From Elusimicrobiota bacterium (lineage in GTDB: Bacteria > CG03 > SLGR01 > PWQF01), in contig PWOI01000053.1 in the NCBI GenBank assembly GCA_003557485.1, forward strand, positions 1-5,629: a DNA stretch of 5,629 nt. The letters run 5' to 3'. The position numbers and the translations under genes were made by a program. This document shows positions 1 to 5,629 of the stretch, in pieces. The notes beneath the pieces were generated by a model that saw only the letters and a program-made list of their open reading frames with translations, did not search any database and was not told the DNA's origin. Each line of letters starts with the position of its first letter. Positions within the stretch are counted from its first letter, which is position 1.

Positions 1-1803
1 AACAGCGGCGGAATCGGCAATATTGAAAAAGGCTTTCGTGAATCGGCCCTTGTAATCGAAAAAACCTGCAAAACACCTAATGTACAGCATACACCCATGG
101 AGCCTCACACAGCCTACGCTTACATGAAAAACGGACGTCTCATCATACATGCCTCTGTACAGACGCCTTATCATGTTAGAAGAATAGTATCAGGAATTCT
201 CGGACTCAAAGAGAACGAGTTAAGGGTTATAAAAGAGAAAGTGGGAGGAGGATACGGCGCCAAGCAGGACTGTAGCGTTGAGGATATAGTAGGAACGGTC
301 GCTTATATGACCGGCAAACCTGTCTACTTCCGAATGACGCGCAGGGAAGAATTTGTCGCCCGAACCAGGCCCCCTCTTCATATTACCGTAAAGGCTGGGG
401 CTGATAAGAAAGGCAATCTGAAAGCCCTGCAGATAAAGACCCTTTCCGATACGGGCGCTTACGGCCCTCACTGTCTCACCGTACCTATGAACGGCTGCTC
501 AAAAACTCTTCCTATGTTTACCTGCAAAAATATGGCTTATGATGTAAAATCATATTATACCAATAATATTGTCACCGGGGCATACCAGGGCTATGGAGTG
601 CCCCAGACCAACTTTGCAGTCCATATGGTTCTTGCGGAGCTTGCCAAAGGCCTGGGGCTCAGCTTTGAAAATTTTATATTAAAAAATCTTGTAAAGAAAA
701 ATTATAAGCTTGATATCTTAAAACAGCTTGGAGAGGGAACCGAAGGCCTCGCACAGAAAGTCTCAAGCTGCGGACTCGGTGAATGCATAGAAAAAGGCCT
801 TCTTAGATACAGAAAATGGAAAAACAACCGCTATGCTGACTCCAGCGATTATGTTCAGGGCAAAGGCATGGCCGTAATGATGCAGGGCTCGGGAATACCA
901 GGAATAGATTCAGCCAACGCCATTGTAAAAATGATATCCGACGGAACATTTATGCTTTACATCGGCGGAGCTGACCTGGGCACCGGAGAAGATACCGTCG
1001 CAGCAAAAATAGCAGCGGAAGAACTTTGCGTAACGCAGGATAAAATAACAGTTACCTCTGCGGATACCGATACCACCCCTTTTGATAAGGGATCCTACGC
1101 ATCAAGCGGCACATTTTTTACCGGGAATGCCTCATATAAGGCCGCAAATAATATGAAAAAACTTATCATACAGGCCGCAGCCGATATCCTGAAAGTAAAA
1201 AAATCAGATATAACCCTGCGAAACGGCAAAGTAAGCGCCGGCAGAAAAACTCTGACATATAAAGAGTTGGCCTATAAAACCCAGTCCGGGTCCGGATGCG
1301 GACAGCTTATAGCATCGGGTGCTTTTACGACTGAACAGTCTCCTATCCCATATGCGGCTCATTTCGCACAGGTCACTATAAACAAACGCACAGGTATCAT
1401 AAAGGTGGATAAATACTACGCTTTACACGACTGCGGGATTCCCATAAATCCCGACTTGGCTGAGGGGCAAGTATACGGAGGAATAATGAAAACAATCGGA
1501 CACTCTCTATACGAAGCGGTTGAATTCAATAAAAACGGGATATGCCTTAACGCTGATTTTACTAATTATCCAATACCCGGTATAAAAGATCTGCCAGAAG
1601 AAATTGATGTCGAGCTTATTGAGGTAGAAGACCGTATAACTCCCTATGTTGGCAAGTCCATATCAGAAATCGCCTGTAACGGAGCTTCCGCCTGCATCGC
1701 AATGGCGGTCAATGAGGCTCTGGGTATCTGGTTAAGAGAATGGCCTTTCAGACCTGAAAAAGTTTTGGCAGCCTTAGAGGAAAAGGAGAAAAATAGTATT
1801 TAA
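1..1803 (+). CDS. Xanthine dehydrogenase-family molybdopterin-binding large subunit (5' end outside window)
   Basis: The reading frame is open from base 1 to the TAA at 1801-1803, giving 600 visible residues. The motif QHTPMEPH (residues 29-36) shows that the methionine at base 97 is internal, so roughly the first 150 residues of a usual 750-780 lie outside the window. Family signatures in order: GGGYGAK (82-88), GAYQGYGVPQ (193-202), GGADLGTGEDT (322-332), YASSGTFFTGNA (366-377), HDCGIPINPDLAEGQ (476-490) and SISE (553-556) before a C-terminal RPEKVLAAL. These enzymes hydroxylate N-heterocycles or aldehydes at a Mo-pterin centre, usually with separate or fused FeS and FAD subunits. By alignment from memory to bovine xanthine oxidoreductase, Gln767 (Q54) and the base Glu1261 (E556) are kept, Glu802 is Gln (Q89, as in E. 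coli XdhA) and the substrate-binding Arg880 is Gln (Q196). Membership in the family is secure; the substrate, and xanthine in particular, is not. Confidence 0.93.
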   Translation, partial: NSGGIGNIEKGFRESALVIEKTCKTPNVQHTPMEPHTAYAYMKNGRLIIHASVQTPYHVRRIVSGILGLKENELRVIKEKVGGGYGAKQDCSVEDIVGTVAYMTGKPVYFRMTRREEFVARTRPPLHITVKAGADKKGNLKALQIKTLSDTGAYGPHCLTVPMNGCSKTLPMFTCKNMAYDVKSYYTNNIVTGAYQGYGVPQTNFAVHMVLAELAKGLGLSFENFILKNLVKKNYKLDILKQLGEGTEGLAQKVSSCGLGECIEKGLLRYRKWKNNRYADSSDYVQGKGMAVMMQGSGIPGIDSANAIVKMISDGTFMLYIGGADLGTGEDTVAAKIAAEELCVTQDKITVTSADTDTTPFDKGSYASSGTFFTGNASYKAANNMKKLIIQAAADILKVKKSDITLRNGKVSAGRKTLTYKELAYKTQSGSGCGQLIASGAFTTEQSPIPYAAHFAQVTINKRTGIIKVDKYYALHDCGIPINPDLAEGQVYGGIMKTIGHSLYEAVEFNKNGICLNADFTNYPIPGIKDLPEEIDVELIEVEDRITPYVGKSISEIACNGASACIAMAVNEALGIWLREWPFRPEKVLAALEEKEKNSI

Positions 1804-1979
1804 CGTCATCTTTCTATAAAACCTACTGTCGCTTATGGGTAAGATGGCTCCTTGGGCTGAACGACAGTGATAACAGAAATTTTTGTAAAAACGAGAGCTG
1901 GAATGAAGGGGGTGTAACTTATAGGCAGTTGGTGTCTTGAGCTTTATATAAAAATTTTAAGTCTACTCAAAAATAAATC
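1804..1979. other. Gene-free junction between hydroxylase and TA array
   Basis: This 176-bp stretch separates the convergent ends of the plus-strand hydroxylase gene and the minus-strand HEPN gene. It holds the repeat core at 1846-1881. It also has an inverted 7-mer, ACTGTCG at 1825-1831 and CGACAGT at 1862-1868, with a 30-nt loop and no T-tract, so it is not a convincing terminator. A Shine-Dalgarno-like AAGGAG lies at 1783-1788 just before the hydroxylase stop, but no open frame follows it. No plausible gene is seen here. Confidence 0.6.
1846..1881 (+). repeat. Diverged short copy (C) of the TA-flanking repeat
   Basis: These 36 bases match the right end of repeat copy B (4958-4993) at 30 positions, and all six differences are transitions. 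The shared core is GGGCTG followed by ACGRCAGTGATAAC. The longer AT-rich part of the repeat is not recognisable upstream. It lies about 106 bp past the stop codon of the HEPN gene, in the same relative position as copies A and B past the abiEii and Fic stop codons. It looks like a decayed or shorter family member. Confidence 0.7.
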
Positions 1980-2384
1980 CTATTTTACAACAGTCGCAGC
2001 CCACCTGAAAAATCTACTTGCATTTTTTACTATTTCATCTGCTTCCCTGCTGAAAATACTCCTGCTTTCGTATTGTACAAGGTTCTTTTTTGCAATAATT
2101 CTTTTCAGGGAATTACTCTTGCTCCCTGATTCGGGAAGCGGTATAGATTTTACAATTTCGCACAGATCAAGATGATTTTGTGATATCGAACGAATACCTT
2201 TCTCATGTATACAAACAGCATCCGCTGCAGAAATAACGCATTGTATTGCCAGAGTTGATGAGGCGTTATAGTTACCCTCTCTAAAAGATTTAATCATCTG
2301 AGAATGATTGTCTTCTGCTTTTTTAAGATACTGTAAAGCTTTTGATTTATCTTCTTCTCTGACCTTAATTTTTCTTGCACTCAT
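1980..2384 (-). CDS. HEPN-domain protein, putative toxin of a HEPN/MNT pair
   Basis: This 134-residue, largely helical protein has the size and shape of small HEPN proteins, starting with helices around KALQYLKKAEDNHSQM and a conserved mid-protein AIQCVISAADAVC helix (residues 46-58). Known HEPN toxins of this pairing are RNases restrained by the partner nucleotidyltransferase. The usual catalytic RX4-6H signature is not obvious. The C-terminal helix reads AKKNLVQYE (98-106), where the Arg and His positions appear as Ala and Val, but Tyr105 sits where HepT-type proteins carry the tyrosine modified by AMP. An R-SISQN-H string at residues 65-71 lies in the inter-helix loop and is probably not catalytic. 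The ATG at 2382-2384 is two bases after the upstream TAA, so the two genes are almost certainly translationally coupled. The family call is good; the activity is uncertain. Confidence 0.8.
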   Translation of the reverse strand: MSARKIKVREEDKSKALQYLKKAEDNHSQMIKSFREGNYNASSTLAIQCVISAADAVCIHEKGIRSISQNHLDLCEIVKSIPLPESGSKSNSLKRIIAKKNLVQYESRSIFSREADEIVKNASRFFRWAATVVK

Positions 2385-2386
2385 TT

Positions 2387-3022
2387 TTACTTGATATCCG
2401 TCAGATCTTTCCCATACACAAGCGTATATGTATTTATTAGAGTTGAAACAGGAGGCATTTTGTTATTAAGAAATTTAATAAATTCTTTCTTTTTCTTTAT
2501 ATATAGATCAAGATGGAGACCAAAATACTCATAGAATTCAGATGAAATTTTATCTGTAAAAGCATCCGCTATTTTTTCAAGGCTAACATCATCCCTTGTC
2601 ACCACAGCAACATCTACATCGCTATCCGGAGTATCTGTCCCTTTTGAGATGCTGCCGTATAGGAATAGTGAGACAATTTCATTTGTTAACTTATACTCTT
2701 TTATTTTACCTTTTATAAAATTCGCGATATCACTCTTTACAGCAATCTCTTTTGTAAATGCCGGAAGAAGGATATTCTTCACATTTCTGTTATTTATATT
2801 AAGACGGTAAAGATGCTGCTTTCCTATAATATCCCGCTTCAGAACATCCTCAGCATATAATTCCTTTAAAGCGGTATGCGCACCGGGCGGAGAAAGTCCC
2901 GTTTCTCTTGCAATTTCACGACCTGTTGCAATAAAATCCTGCCTTTTTGAAATAAACAAGCGGATGATTTTTAGCTTTGAAGGCGTATTTAATATTCTAT
3001 CTAGTACTCTTTCTACAACCAT
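2387..3022 (-). CDS. MNT-type nucleotidyltransferase with N-terminal winged helix, putative antitoxin of HEPN/MNT pair
   Basis: This 211-residue protein has two parts. Residues 1-85 form a winged helix-turn-helix (ATGREIARETGLSPPGAHTALKEL around 32-55, then a wing ending HLYRL at 70-74). Residues 95-211 are a minimal nucleotidyltransferase with YGSISKG (122-128), SDVDVAV (134-140) and LHLDLYI (169-175), giving the GS motif and three acidic metal ligands (D135, D137, D172). In characterised HEPN/MNT systems the MNT protein neutralises the HEPN RNase by adding AMP to a tyrosine. The intact active site fits that role (inference here). The winged helix suggests it also represses its own operon, whose promoter carries two palindromes. 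It is the first gene of a two-gene operon, with only 2 bp before the HEPN gene. The ATG at 3020-3022 lies about 20 nt downstream of the predicted transcription start. Confidence 0.88.
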   Translation of the reverse strand: MVVERVLDRILNTPSKLKIIRLFISKRQDFIATGREIARETGLSPPGAHTALKELYAEDVLKRDIIGKQHLYRLNINNRNVKNILLPAFTKEIAVKSDIANFIKGKIKEYKLTNEIVSLFLYGSISKGTDTPDSDVDVAVVTRDDVSLEKIADAFTDKISSEFYEYFGLHLDLYIKKKKEFIKFLNNKMPPVSTLINTYTLVYGKDLTDIK

Positions 3023-3038
3023 ATTATGTCAACCCTAC

Positions 3039-3072
3039 TTAACATATGTTAACTATAATTAACAAATTTGTT
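3039..3072. promoter_or_regulatory. Paired palindromic operator of the HEPN/MNT operon
   Basis: There are two perfect palindromes: TTAACATATGTTAA at 3039-3052 and AACAAATTTGTT at 3061-3072. Their centres are 21 bp apart, two helical turns, and both share the pattern AACA-AT-TGTT with small changes. The first touches the -10 box and covers the predicted start site; the second lies inside the -35/-10 spacer. This is a typical geometry for two dimers of an autorepressor on one DNA face. The likely ligand is the winged helix of the MNT protein encoded directly downstream. The palindromes are seen directly; the ligand is inferred. Confidence 0.7.
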
Positions 3073-3080
3073 TTTGTCAA
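3052..3080 (-). promoter_or_regulatory. Sigma70-type promoter for the MNT-HEPN operon
   Basis: Read on the minus strand, TTGACA (3080-3075) is followed after exactly 17 bp by TATAGT (3057-3052), a near-consensus housekeeping promoter. Transcription would start near 3045, leaving about 20 nt before the ATG at 3022. The ribosome site is weak: AGGG is about 10 nt before the ATG. A second TTGACA at 3032-3027 is too close to the start codon to serve this gene. The -35 hexamer sits at the left edge of repeat copy A. Confidence 0.78.
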
Positions 3081-3096
3081 GAGGAGCATTCCATAG

Positions 3097-3232
3097 AAAT
3101 GGGAATAGGAATAAACATCGTAACCCCCCTTTTAAATGAAGGCTATCTGATTTTAATAAAACTAAGAAGGAATTAATTGCTATATTTGAAAGTGCTGGCC
3201 CCCCGAGTTGGTCGACAGTGATAACGAGAATT
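3097..3232 (+). repeat. Repeat copy A (136 bp), between abiEii 3' end and MNT promoter
   Basis: This segment matches 4859-4993 in direct orientation, with 8 substitutions and one length change in a C-run (6 versus 5 C). The stretch 3125-3205 is identical in both copies for 81 bases. Differences cluster in the GC-rich right end (CCCCCCGAGTTGGTCGACAGTGATAAC), the part also found in copy C. Weaker similarity (13 of 22 positions) continues leftwards to the TTGACA box at 3075-3080. The right end lies 28 bp beyond the abiEii stop codon. No credible protein is encoded, and no attC-type R-box pair was found. Confidence 0.92.
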
Positions 3233-3259
3233 TAATCTGATTAAAAGATTTTTTAAACA

Positions 3260-4174
3260 TCATTCTTCTTTCCAACCTTTCTTTTGTTGCCATTTCAGAT
3301 TAAATGATTTCTTCATTACAATAGATTCTATGACCGGCATTATAAAATCTCTTAAGGTTATAACCGTATTTTCTAAACTTATCTCTGATTCTTTTATCCC
3401 AATTTTATTTAAAAATCCTTCCCACTGTTTATTTTTCTGTTTATCCATAATGAATTCTTCGCTTAACCCCACTGGAACAGTATCCGGGATTGGAGTTTTT
3501 CTTCTTTTGAAAGTTTCTTTTAATGCCTTCTGAAGTTTTGATCCATCTGTTTGAAATGTACTAATCAAAAACCGGATATCATAATAATCCTTCATACGGC
3601 TGTTGATTATTCCCTTCTCAAAAATTATCTGGATTTTCTCTGCAAGGCTTGCCTCTACAGAATAGGCTAATATGCGGGGAGCAGGAAAATCAAGCAATGT
3701 GGGATATTCAATTTTTTCCGGTTGCGTCATTATTGCGTCTCCAAACCCAATATCTATTTGAGCCGGAATAACAGCTTGTCCCAGTTGTGCCTTGAATTTT
3801 ATACGAATTCCCTGGTATTCATTTTCTTCTCTTATATCTTCTGCTAATATCGTTTCTTCAATAAAATTCAATCCGTCATCATCCACATTAACTCTGCACA
3901 ACTGCATTACCATCTCTTTTGCTTCTTTAATACTGATAATCTTTTTTGAAGAGAAATCTGCATCAAGAGTAGGTCTATGCGGTTCACCGTGCCAATAACT
4001 ATAAAGAACTGCGCCCTTTAAAACCAATTTGTCTGAGTATTCCGATATACTCAGCCTATATAGAAACCGCTCTATTGCATAACGAATTAACAAATTTGTA
4101 AAGATCTCGTTTCTCTCTCTGGAAATATTAAGCAATCGTGCCCTGACCGAAGCCGGAATATTTTTATTACTCAT
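3260..4174 (-). CDS. abiEii: AbiEii/AbiGii-family nucleotidyltransferase toxin
   Basis: This 304-residue protein is a textbook AbiEii. Motifs counted from the ATG: LKGAVLYSYW (52-61) followed by RPTLDADFS (67-75) with D71 and D73 as the acidic pair, QIDIGFGD (139-146), then VEASLAEKIQIIFEKG (173-188) and SRMKDYYDIRFL (192-203), the family's conserved Lys/Asp/Tyr block. AbiEii is the bacteriostatic toxin of the type IV AbiE system; characterised relatives bind or use nucleotides, and AbiE systems act in abortive phage infection. The frame can be extended 12 bases to a TTG at 4186, but the ATG at 4172-4174 is preferred. It has GAAG six bases upstream and overlaps the abiEi stop by 8 nt (ATGAGTAA), typical of translational coupling. 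Length is near the family norm and all core motifs are present, so it is probably functional. Confidence 0.95.
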   Translation of the reverse strand: MSNKNIPASVRARLLNISRERNEIFTNLLIRYAIERFLYRLSISEYSDKLVLKGAVLYSYWHGEPHRPTLDADFSSKKIISIKEAKEMVMQLCRVNVDDDGLNFIEETILAEDIREENEYQGIRIKFKAQLGQAVIPAQIDIGFGDAIMTQPEKIEYPTLLDFPAPRILAYSVEASLAEKIQIIFEKGIINSRMKDYYDIRFLISTFQTDGSKLQKALKETFKRRKTPIPDTVPVGLSEEFIMDKQKNKQWEGFLNKIGIKESEISLENTVITLRDFIMPVIESIVMKKSFNLKWQQKKGWKEE

Positions 4175-4766
4175 AAACTGCTTCAATATAAGGCCTTATT
4201 ACATTCTGTACTTTATTAATTTTTGAATACTCCCAAAGCTTATCTACCGTACCCTTGTTCTGTTTTTTATACTCCTTTAGTGCCTCAATAGCCACATCCA
4301 GGCCAATTTTATTTCTAAACTTGAAGCAGTCAGCAACGGTTTTTGCCGGACTATAAATATTAATTTTTATATTATCAATAAGATGCTCTTCGCAACCTTC
4401 TTTCAGGGAGTCCCCTGTCATTCTTATGATTTTAAGCGGAATATTTATTGCAGGAGTCCAATCTTTATGATGTATTGCAATCCAGATCTGAAAAGGGTTT
4501 TGGGATGTCATCTCATGAAATCTGAGCGCGCTAAGAAGGCAAATAACTGCATTGGGAACTTTTTTTGCTGTTTCAATCAGCATTATATCTTCCGAAAGCT
4601 CCTTATCCGGAATTTTATACAGACCCCTGCCTATTTTCTCAAGTTTTCCTTTTTTGTAAAGACGATAAATATACTGCCTGGGAATATTGTACTTCTCAAC
4701 ATCTTTTGGCCTCAGCACAGTATTTTTTTCAGCCAGTTCTATAATTTTTTCTATTTTACTGTTCAT
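4167..4766 (-). CDS. abiEi: AbiEi-family antitoxin / transcriptional autorepressor
   Basis: This 199-residue protein opens with a winged helix (residues 5-52: LRPKDVEKYNIPRQYIYRL, then KLEKIGRGLYKIP), followed by the AbiEi core: ICLLSALRFHEMTSQNPFQIWIAI (75-98) and YSPAKTVADCFKFRNKIGLD (138-157). In characterised AbiE systems this protein counters AbiEii without stable binding (type IV) and represses the operon by binding inverted repeats at the promoter. A 46-bp imperfect inverted repeat starts at the base immediately upstream of this gene's ATG (4764-4766), matching that mode of control. It is the first gene of the operon and overlaps abiEii by 8 nt. The ribosome site is poor, with only AAAG five bases before the ATG, so initiation may be inefficient or helped by other features. 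Confidence 0.94.
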   Translation of the reverse strand: MNSKIEKIIELAEKNTVLRPKDVEKYNIPRQYIYRLYKKGKLEKIGRGLYKIPDKELSEDIMLIETAKKVPNAVICLLSALRFHEMTSQNPFQIWIAIHHKDWTPAINIPLKIIRMTGDSLKEGCEEHLIDNIKINIYSPAKTVADCFKFRNKIGLDVAIEALKEYKKQNKGTVDKLWEYSKINKVQNVIRPYIEAVYE

Positions 4767-4812
4767 GTTACTTTACATAGGCAATTATTTATAAATGCCT
4801 ATGTTTTGTAAC
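4767..4812. promoter_or_regulatory. Inverted-repeat operator of the abiE operon
   Basis: Two 17-bp arms, 4767-4783 and 4796-4812, flank a 12-bp AT-rich spacer. The inner nine bases are perfect (ACATAGGCA / TGCCTATGT) and the outer five are perfect (GTTAC / GTAAC), separated by three mismatches (TTT against TTT on the same strand). The repeat starts immediately upstream of the abiEi start codon and reaches the -10 region, so a protein bound here would block initiation. Known AbiEi proteins autorepress by binding inverted repeats; this is the obvious target. In RNA the same arms could also fold into a hairpin over the start region. Confidence 0.82.
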
Positions 4813-4842
4813 TATACTAATATTTAATTTCATAAATGTCAA
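4811..4842 (-). promoter_or_regulatory. Sigma70-type promoter for abiEi-abiEii
   Basis: On the minus strand, a consensus TTGACA (4842-4837) is followed after 17 bp by TAGTAT (4819-4814); an alternative TATAGT (4816-4811) lies at 20 bp. The downstream context TATAGTTA is shared with the MNT promoter, where the spacer is 17 bp, suggesting common ancestry with a 3-bp length change. The transcript would begin at about 4807, at the edge of the inverted-repeat operator. Confidence 0.68.
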
Positions 4843-4858
4843 CTGAAAAATGCTACAA

Positions 4859-4993
4859 AAATGGGAACAGGAATAGACATCGTAACCCCCTTTTAAATGA
4901 AGGCTATCTGATTTTAATAAAACTAAGAAGGAATTAATTGCTATATTTGAAAGTGCTGGCCCCCCGGGCTGGACGGCAGTGATAACAGGAATT
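4859..4993 (+). repeat. Repeat copy B, between Fic 3' end and abiE promoter
   Basis: This is a direct repeat of 3097-3232 (about 94% identical; 4886-4966 is identical over 81 bases). It lies immediately upstream of the abiE -35 box and 30 bp beyond the stop codon of the Fic gene. With copy A it brackets the whole abiE operon in direct orientation, so homologous recombination between copies could delete a unit of about 1.76 kb. The right end, GGGCTGGACGGCAGTGATAAC, is the part shared with copy C. The plus strand has an open stretch (frame reading DFNKTKKELIAIF) but no start, ribosome site or continuation in copy A, so it is not called a gene. Confidence 0.92.
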
Positions 4994-5023
4994 CTCACGG
5001 AATATTTGGGATCGACTCTTTAT

Positions 5024-5629
5024 TTATCTGTTTTCACTTTTTTCCGATACTGTTTCATTCATATCTATTAAATTAGTTATCACGGATTCAATTATTTCTT
5101 TCTCCGACGAACCGCTTTCTGCAATCATAAGGGTCAACGCGCACAGGGTATTCTCTTCAATGCGTTTCCTGGCTTCATTAATATATAAAAGATTGTTTTT
5201 GTCCAGGTAACTTAAAAATACAGTAGATGCGATTCTCTTATTCCCGTCCACAAAAGCATGATTTTTTGTTATAGCATAAAGCAGGTGGGCAGCTTTTGAT
5301 TCTACACTGGGATATAATTCCTGGCCGCCAAAGGTCTGATATGTATTTTCAATAGCCGATTAAAAAGACTTATCTTTTACTTTTCCAAAGAACTTTTCTC
5401 CGGTAAATTTTTTCTTTAATTGATTAACAACGTCATTCGCATCTTTTAAACTAAATTTATAGTTCTCTTTTATGGCCTCTTTTCTTTCAACTTTCCCGTT
5501 GTCATAATTATCGAATAAAACCAGGGCGTTGTAATAATCTGATATAATCTTAAGTAATCCCTTTGTTTCCAGTAAATCAGTCTCTTTTTCCAGCTTATTA
5601 ACTATATTAAAAAGCTCCTTCAGTTTTTC
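5024..5629 (-). pseudogene. Fic/Doc-domain protein (RhuM-Fic-like), interrupted by an in-frame stop; 5' end outside window
   Basis: One minus-strand frame is open from 5629 to the TAA at 5024-5026 except for a TAA at 5360-5362. Before it are 89 codons (including IISDYYNALVLFDNYDNGKV), resembling the linker before Fic in RhuM-Fic proteins; after it are 111 codons with YQTFGGQELYPSVESKAAHL, the Fic motif HAFVDGNKRIAS, and a C-terminal CALTLMIAES helix. The motif is Doc-like (GNKR rather than GNGR). Family members transfer phosphate or nucleotide groups to target proteins. Both sides stay in the same frame, so a base substitution is more likely than an indel; relatives, from memory, have Lys here (AAA to TAA). 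Between the stop and the motif histidine there is no ATG, GTG or TTG, and the GTG at 5251 lies inside the motif after the His, so restart could not restore activity. Inactivation is likely; a sequencing error cannot be excluded. Confidence 0.82.

Follow-up and report, generated by a model that had tools for sequence, protein, structure and literature searches.

We analysed a 5,629-nucleotide stretch of DNA from an Elusimicrobiota bacterium (contig PWOI01000053.1 of assembly GCA_003557485.1, hereafter the window), in which a short repeat lies behind each of three minus-strand gene units. Our results indicate that the repeats are probably the attachment (att) junctions of a tandem accretion array, in which att-flanked and mostly recombinase-less cassettes have collected at a tRNA-Asn gene, most likely through a large serine recombinase that targets tRNA. 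This reading accounts for the repeat and ties it to a clade of recombinases whose genes converge on the 3′ ends of tRNA and transfer-messenger RNA (tmRNA) genes. If it is true, the clade would provide new integrase/attB pairs at universally conserved sites, and toxin–antitoxin operons would be able to pile up as cassettes without an integron.

The repeat carries the 3′ end of tRNA-Asn

The window is an entire contig (C141) of a metagenome-assembled genome (MAG) of 2.07 Mb, consisting of 212 contigs and 87% complete. Its minus strand carries, in order, a RhuM–Fic unit cut by the contig end, a site, AbiEi–AbiEii, a site, MNT–HEPN and a third site, after which comes a convergent gene for a molybdopterin enzyme. 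The original prediction had placed three same-strand copies of the repeat at 1846, 3198 and 4958, each following the stop codon of one minus-strand unit (HEPN/MNT, AbiE or Fic). We recovered all three, in the same orientation, as a 37-nt family at 1845–1881, 3196–3232 and 4957–4993 (73–84% identity to the first copy), lying 105 nt from the stop codon of HEPN, 34 nt from that of AbiEii and 37 nt from that of Fic. In shuffled sequence a 14-mer with up to three mismatches was expected 0.47 times, and three or more copies arose in only 1 of 200 shuffles; the length and similarity of the copies rule out chance. A 50-position sequence model gave the three copies genome-wide E values of 5e-14 to 3e-11, scores that are partly circular by construction since the model was built from the window copies together with related ones.

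In the sense of the genes, the repeat is about 30 bp long and consists of an arm, GTTATCACTGYC (also TGTTATCACTGYC), followed by the core GTCCAGCCCGGGGAGCCA. The 18 nt of this core match the 3′ end of tRNA-Asn(GTT) exactly, both in contig C174 of the same genome and in a relative. Thus, what had been put forward as a possibly undescribed recombination site has the end of a tRNA gene as its core, as att sites of genomic islands do. Site 1 (1845–1874, minus strand) comprises the left arm GTTATCACTGTC at 1863–1874 and the tRNA-Asn-derived core at 1845–1862, and is followed by CTTACCCATAAGCGA, an arm common to two sites of the relative G005. Sites 2 (3196–3225; arm 3214–3225, core 3196–3213) and 3 (4957–4986; arm 4975–4986, core 4957–4974) lie on the same strand, and from left to right the three cores differ from the tRNA end at 3, 4 and 1 positions.

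Contig C83 of the same genome contains two further copies with a perfect core, at 277–306 and 1503–1532, around a second MNT–HEPN pair that is 91% identical to that of the window. As the start of C83 reads, from its sequence, like the end of another Fic gene, the order there is Fic-like gene, site, MNT–HEPN, site and recombinase, compared with Fic, site, AbiE, site, MNT–HEPN and site in the window. The AbiE and HEPN/MNT units of the window and the HEPN/MNT unit of C83 are each enclosed by two sites, with no further genes in between, which is the arrangement of a cis-mobilizable element (CIME). The suggestion that the pattern would continue with further units and reach a recombinase gene was borne out, the former in C83 and in the relative, the latter in C83.

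A reordered array in a relative

The relative G005 belongs to the same order, and its array lies on contig C103 (PWEK01000025.1, Elusimicrobia bacterium T1Sed10_83R1). It is headed by an intact tRNA-Asn gene at 14343–14418 on the minus strand, followed by same-strand copies of the core at 12097, 6996, 3490, 2327 and 277; a core equal to the tRNA 3′ end and an intact tRNA gene at the head of the array are what is found at a genomic island. Between the cores lie an outer-membrane-type module; RhuM–Fic with a SEC-C gene and an AbiE pair; an ATPase gene with an AbiE pair; a methyltransferase gene; and another gene. Two forms of the left arm were seen, GTTATCACTGCC and variants resembling GTTATCAACACC, and the same module end carries different variants in G003 and in G005.

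Comparison of the two genomes located breakpoints at the core. Positions 3409–3816 of C174, which span the core and a recombinase gene (recombinase 2), match 12100–11693 of the G005 contig at 93% identity, and this homology begins at the core, 3409 being its first base. The tRNA genes of the two contigs, in turn, are 100% identical up to the last base of the core, where identity stops. Whereas tRNA-Asn and recombinase 2 share one core in C174, in G005 a 2.26-kb module that ends in a left arm lies between two cores. This exact insertion at the core contrasts an occupied with an unseparated site. The AbiE cassette gave a similar picture: window positions 3201–4944 correspond to 3480–5221 of G005 (92.7% identity), and on the 3′ side the homology ends inside the core. 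RhuM–Fic (window 5027–5629, G005 10294–10896, 92.5% identity) has a site behind it in the window and the SEC-C gene behind it in G005. The AbiE, RhuM–Fic and HEPN/MNT cassettes are common at 91–93% identity with differing neighbours, so module order is not fixed between the window and G005. The comparison of cassette order that the original prediction had proposed therefore yielded a difference, and the combination it had named as speaking against a cassette array (fixed order, no recombinase, repeats at random positions) was not what we observed.

Strong matches to the 50-position model occurred only in the window's genome (G000), G003 and G005, with a decayed copy in G001, which limits the exact site to one order among the genomes searched. 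A pattern scan of 84,980 species genomes returned only the G005 contig and one GC-rich, chance-like match, and a scan of viral contigs returned only one GC-rich, chance-like match. In G001, G002, G004 and G007 the contig breaks off on the 3′ side of tRNA-Asn, either immediately or after no more than about 20 nt; this would be expected if the core were repeated there, and is circumstantial.

Large serine recombinases converge on tRNA and tmRNA genes

The recombinase gene of C83 (recombinase 1) encodes 534 aa and is convergent with the array; its 3′ end overlaps the second site of that contig, so that its C-terminal residues WLPGLDGSDN are an antisense reading through the site. It matches the Pfam families Resolvase (PF00239), Recombinase (PF07508) and Zn_ribbon_recom (PF13408). 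A catalytic Resolvase domain followed by Recombinase and zinc-ribbon domains, in a protein of more than 450 aa, makes it a large serine recombinase. Recombinase 2 (C174, 3502–4413) is partial, convergent and of the same broad type, and lies directly behind the intact tRNA-Asn gene. Immediately upstream of recombinase 1 lies a gene for a 100-aa protein (locus L002, 3062–3364) that has no match in Pfam or NCBIfam; a similar-looking protein (L144, 2096–2398) precedes a 70% identical paralogue of recombinase 1 in contig C198. The 100-aa protein is a candidate accessory or directionality factor.

Homologues of recombinase 1 were searched in 145 relatives and in other bacteria. Excluding recombinase 1 itself, 22 loci were found, 5 of which were cut off or fragmentary, leaving 17 with an assembled 3′ end. 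In 16 of these 17, from 11 genomes, the recombinase gene faces a convergent tRNA or tmRNA gene, with no more than about 430 nt between the 3′ end of the RNA gene and the end of the protein match; in 13 of the 16 the recombinase frame reads into the RNA gene. The targets were tRNA genes for Ser, Ile, Gln, Glu, Gly, Asp, Val, Ala, Asn and Arg, as well as tmRNA. When tRNA-Asn loci were searched separately, genome G011 proved to have a recombinase-like frame that runs into this gene. In genome G144, tRNA-Gly and a 17-bp direct repeat of its 3′ portion enclose a 10.9-kb stretch with a homologue at one end; the stretch carries antirestriction-like, RadC-like and XRE-type genes (names read from translations). 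This tRNA-Gly case was the only one found when direct-repeat ends of the other homologues were sought within about 20 kb, and a search of four genomes, G031 among them, for solo tmRNA 3′ ends as additional att scars found none besides the tmRNA itself. The association of this recombinase clade with tRNA 3′ ends is one of position, and its members presumably act there as recombinases.

Proposed origin of the array

We propose that the repeats are att junctions of mobile elements that integrated at the 3′ end of tRNA-Asn. The attP of an element, predicted to be GTTATCACTGCC-core-CATAAGTGAT, would recombine with the tRNA-Asn 3′ end in such a way that the tRNA is restored, and later elements would use the same core, displacing earlier ones outward. 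Each junction would then comprise a left arm (TGTTATCACTGCC or TGTTATCAACACC) as the end of one element, the 18-bp core, and the right arm of the next element. Successive integration of this kind would leave one same-oriented site per module. The modules of the window would have shrunk to, or been captured as, single toxin–antitoxin operons without a recombinase of their own, like CIMEs. A large serine recombinase of the clade that uses tRNA 3′ ends is the most likely enzyme: the gene for recombinase 1 overlaps the core in C83, that for recombinase 2 directly follows tRNA-Asn in C174, and either of the two may be the one that acts. In principle, a recombinase of the same array, as in C83, or one encoded elsewhere could excise or move recombinase-less elements that lie between sites; in C83 the recombinase gene directly adjoins the HEPN/MNT cassette, which its product might mobilize. 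The toxin–antitoxin genes may in addition help to keep the array, and the survival of such operons fits an addictive effect, which is established for toxin–antitoxin systems in general.

A more far-reaching version of this proposal is speculative, and we regard it as rather doubtful: a serine-recombinase counterpart of the integron, in which mobile one-operon cassettes, mostly toxin–antitoxin and without a recombinase of their own, would be captured and reshuffled in trans at a site derived from tRNA-Asn, within a wider clade specialized on tRNA and tmRNA genes.

Several observations weigh against the proposed origin at tRNA-Asn. Neither the tRNA gene nor a recombinase is present in the window itself, whose contig ends in Fic; the window being a whole contig, the array could not be traced to the right in its genome, and owing to the fragmentation of the MAG, C83, C141 and C174 cannot be joined. 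The homology boundaries of the HEPN/MNT and Fic units lie 25–105 nt from the site and not exactly at it. The attP of a serine integrase should show inverted-arm symmetry, which did not reach significance across all sites; a single site showed a 7/8 arm match at 34-nt spacing, with an uncorrected P of 0.009. With two arm types present, the core may serve two or more recombinases, and the homologue of genome G057 has no tRNA gene nearby.

Alternative explanations

Alternatively, a tyrosine integrase whose gene is absent from the assembled contigs could have built the tRNA-Asn array, with the serine recombinases as bystanders that share its site. The 3′ ends of tRNA genes are the classical targets of tyrosine integrases, serine integrases were not known at tRNA genes in the Islander survey (PMC4383910), and tyrosine-recombinase-like genes do occur in the genome, with one in contig C58 of G005 near a decayed site. 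However, the genes that touch the core in two contigs are serine recombinases, and a convergent tRNA or tmRNA gene accompanies 16 of the 17 homologues from across the bacteria, which makes a tyrosine integrase improbable. A reading in which the modules are passive relics overlaps in part with the origin that we favour, since it accepts the same source of the sites: old tRNA-Asn islands would have decayed to toxin–antitoxin genes and att scars, and homologous recombination between these scars and the duplicated 135-nt leaders would afterwards have rearranged the modules. The diverged cores of copies 1 and 2, the stop that interrupts RhuM–Fic and the duplication of the leader at 93% identity are all consistent with this reading, but the exact core breakpoints between C174 and G005 and at the 3′ end of the AbiE cassette favour site-specific exchange for at least some events, and the frame of recombinase 1 is open. 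We consider the passive-relic reading less likely than the origin that we favour.

The two remaining readings do not involve a tRNA island. One oriented site per unit behind the stop codon, in an array of short cassettes rich in toxin–antitoxin genes, would suit an integron with unusual attC sites, but the core is a tRNA end and we find this reading hardly credible. In line with the original prediction, the R-box search found neither GTTRRRY nor RYYYAAC boxes in the five copies tested, and folding revealed no conserved stem among them; no integron integrase (TIGR02249) scored above the curated cut-off in the 87% complete genome, and sub-threshold matches also appeared in 14 of 14 controls. The idea of a cassette array consequently holds in that each module has one oriented recombination-type site, and fails as regards an integron, the adjacent enzymes being large serine recombinases and not integron integrases. 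The position just past stop codons would also suit a 3′ regulatory or terminator element, or a dispersed repeat like a miniature inverted-repeat transposable element, unrelated to recombination; against this, the copies share no fold, and the repeat carries the tRNA end and occurs only in tRNA-Asn arrays and at a few stray sites in one order, so that we judge such an element very improbable. A search of the window against Rfam gave no match for the repeat as an RNA element.

Relation to known systems

Composite staphylococcal cassette chromosome (SCC) islands combine Ccr large serine recombinases, tandem non-autonomous modules and a repeated site at each junction. The present array resembles them in having large serine recombinases and tandem non-autonomous modules with a repeated junction site, and differs in its target, which is the protein gene rlmH/orfX in SCC and tRNA-Asn here. 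Recombinase 1 is not a Ccr: its matches to the CcrB, CcrA and XisF models were far below the cut-offs (CcrB, 100 bits compared with a cut-off of 900), and with a tRNA-Asn core in place of rlmH an SCC element was rejected. Mobile integrons and superintegrons are likewise oriented arrays of short cassettes, rich in toxin–antitoxin genes and with one site per cassette, whereas here attC boxes, the stem and IntI are absent and the site derives from a tRNA.

Accreting CIMEs, integrative and conjugative elements (ICEs) and integrative and mobilizable elements (IMEs) are mostly larger, unlike the modules here, which measure 1.2–1.8 kb and hold one toxin–antitoxin operon each. Their accretion, as in ICESt1/3 of Streptococcus thermophilus and streptococcal IMEs (PMC5704250), nevertheless offers a close likeness, as att sites are kept while recombination and transfer genes are lost, and elements stand in tandem at the 3′ end of one gene with chimeric junctions; tRNA sites are used there by tyrosine integrases, whereas serine recombinases stand at the sites described here. 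The tRNA islands found by Islander (PMC4383910) share the intact tRNA restored at one end, the tRNA 3′ fragments that mark island ends and the occurrence of tandem arrays, but tandems there require an integrase for each island, and the integrases are tyrosine integrases. What is unusual in our results is that large serine recombinases are paired with tRNA genes. According to the 2014 survey of tRNA islands (PMC4383910), no use of tRNA genes by serine integrases was known; the IME review lists tyrosine integrases for tRNA sites (PMC5704250), and a 2023 survey of mycobacterial prophages reported tRNA sites for tyrosine integrases (PMC10654092). We found no open-access paper on a clade of tRNA-targeting large serine recombinases; subscription papers and bioRxiv were outside this search, and an earlier description is possible.

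Gene units of the window and additional repeats

The HEPN/MNT nucleotidyltransferase toxin–antitoxin cassette (1980–3022, minus strand) consists of HEPN at 1980–2384 and MNT at 2387–3022, and the AbiE cassette (3260–4766, minus strand) of AbiEii at 3260–4186 and AbiEi at 4167–4766. Pfam matches were obtained for HEPN (6e-5), NTP_transf_2, AbiEii (4e-46) and AbiEi_4. The RhuM–Fic unit (5024–5629, minus strand) contains an in-frame stop at 5360–5362, and its assignment follows from its DNA identity to the Pfam-supported Fic/RhuM pair of the relative; the relative's copy is also split, at another position. The host flank (1–1803, plus strand) encodes the molybdopterin-binding subunit of a xanthine-dehydrogenase-type enzyme and is convergent with the array. 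Other genes, and not the array, lie behind its orthologue in G003, which makes it merely a neighbour of the array. Positions 1–320 of the window overlap 4181–4500 of contig C171 from the same MAG at only 90% DNA identity, pointing to a strain mixture or a paralogue.

Copies 2 and 3 of the repeat are embedded in a longer, 135-nt duplication that the original prediction had missed (3097–3232 and 4858–4993, minus strand). Each of these leaders comprises a site (2 and 3, respectively), a spacer and a promoter-adjacent motif, GGGGGTYACGATGTCYNTTCCTATTCCCA, at 3100–3124 and 4862–4886. About 20 nt separate the end of this dispersed motif from a downstream TTGACA-type −35 box, and the genes that follow are very different, both toxin–antitoxin and apparently housekeeping (loci L033, L034, L035, L036 and L080–L107). 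Genome G008 has 15 copies; in those inspected, which lie at contig ends, about 75 further bases upstream are near-identical. The motif looks like the end of a repeated element set at a fixed distance from promoters.

Contig C83 (L002) holds two other direct repeats. One, of 106 nt (3615–3720 and 5232–5337, 86% identity), surrounds a second, reversed HEPN/MNT pair, a cassette type distinct from that at tRNA-Asn. The other (4997–5038 and 9004–9045, 90% identity) has one copy that runs into a tRNA 3′-end fragment, GGTTCGAGTCCAACTCGCGGAGCCAC, and is possibly the scar of a different tRNA-targeting element.

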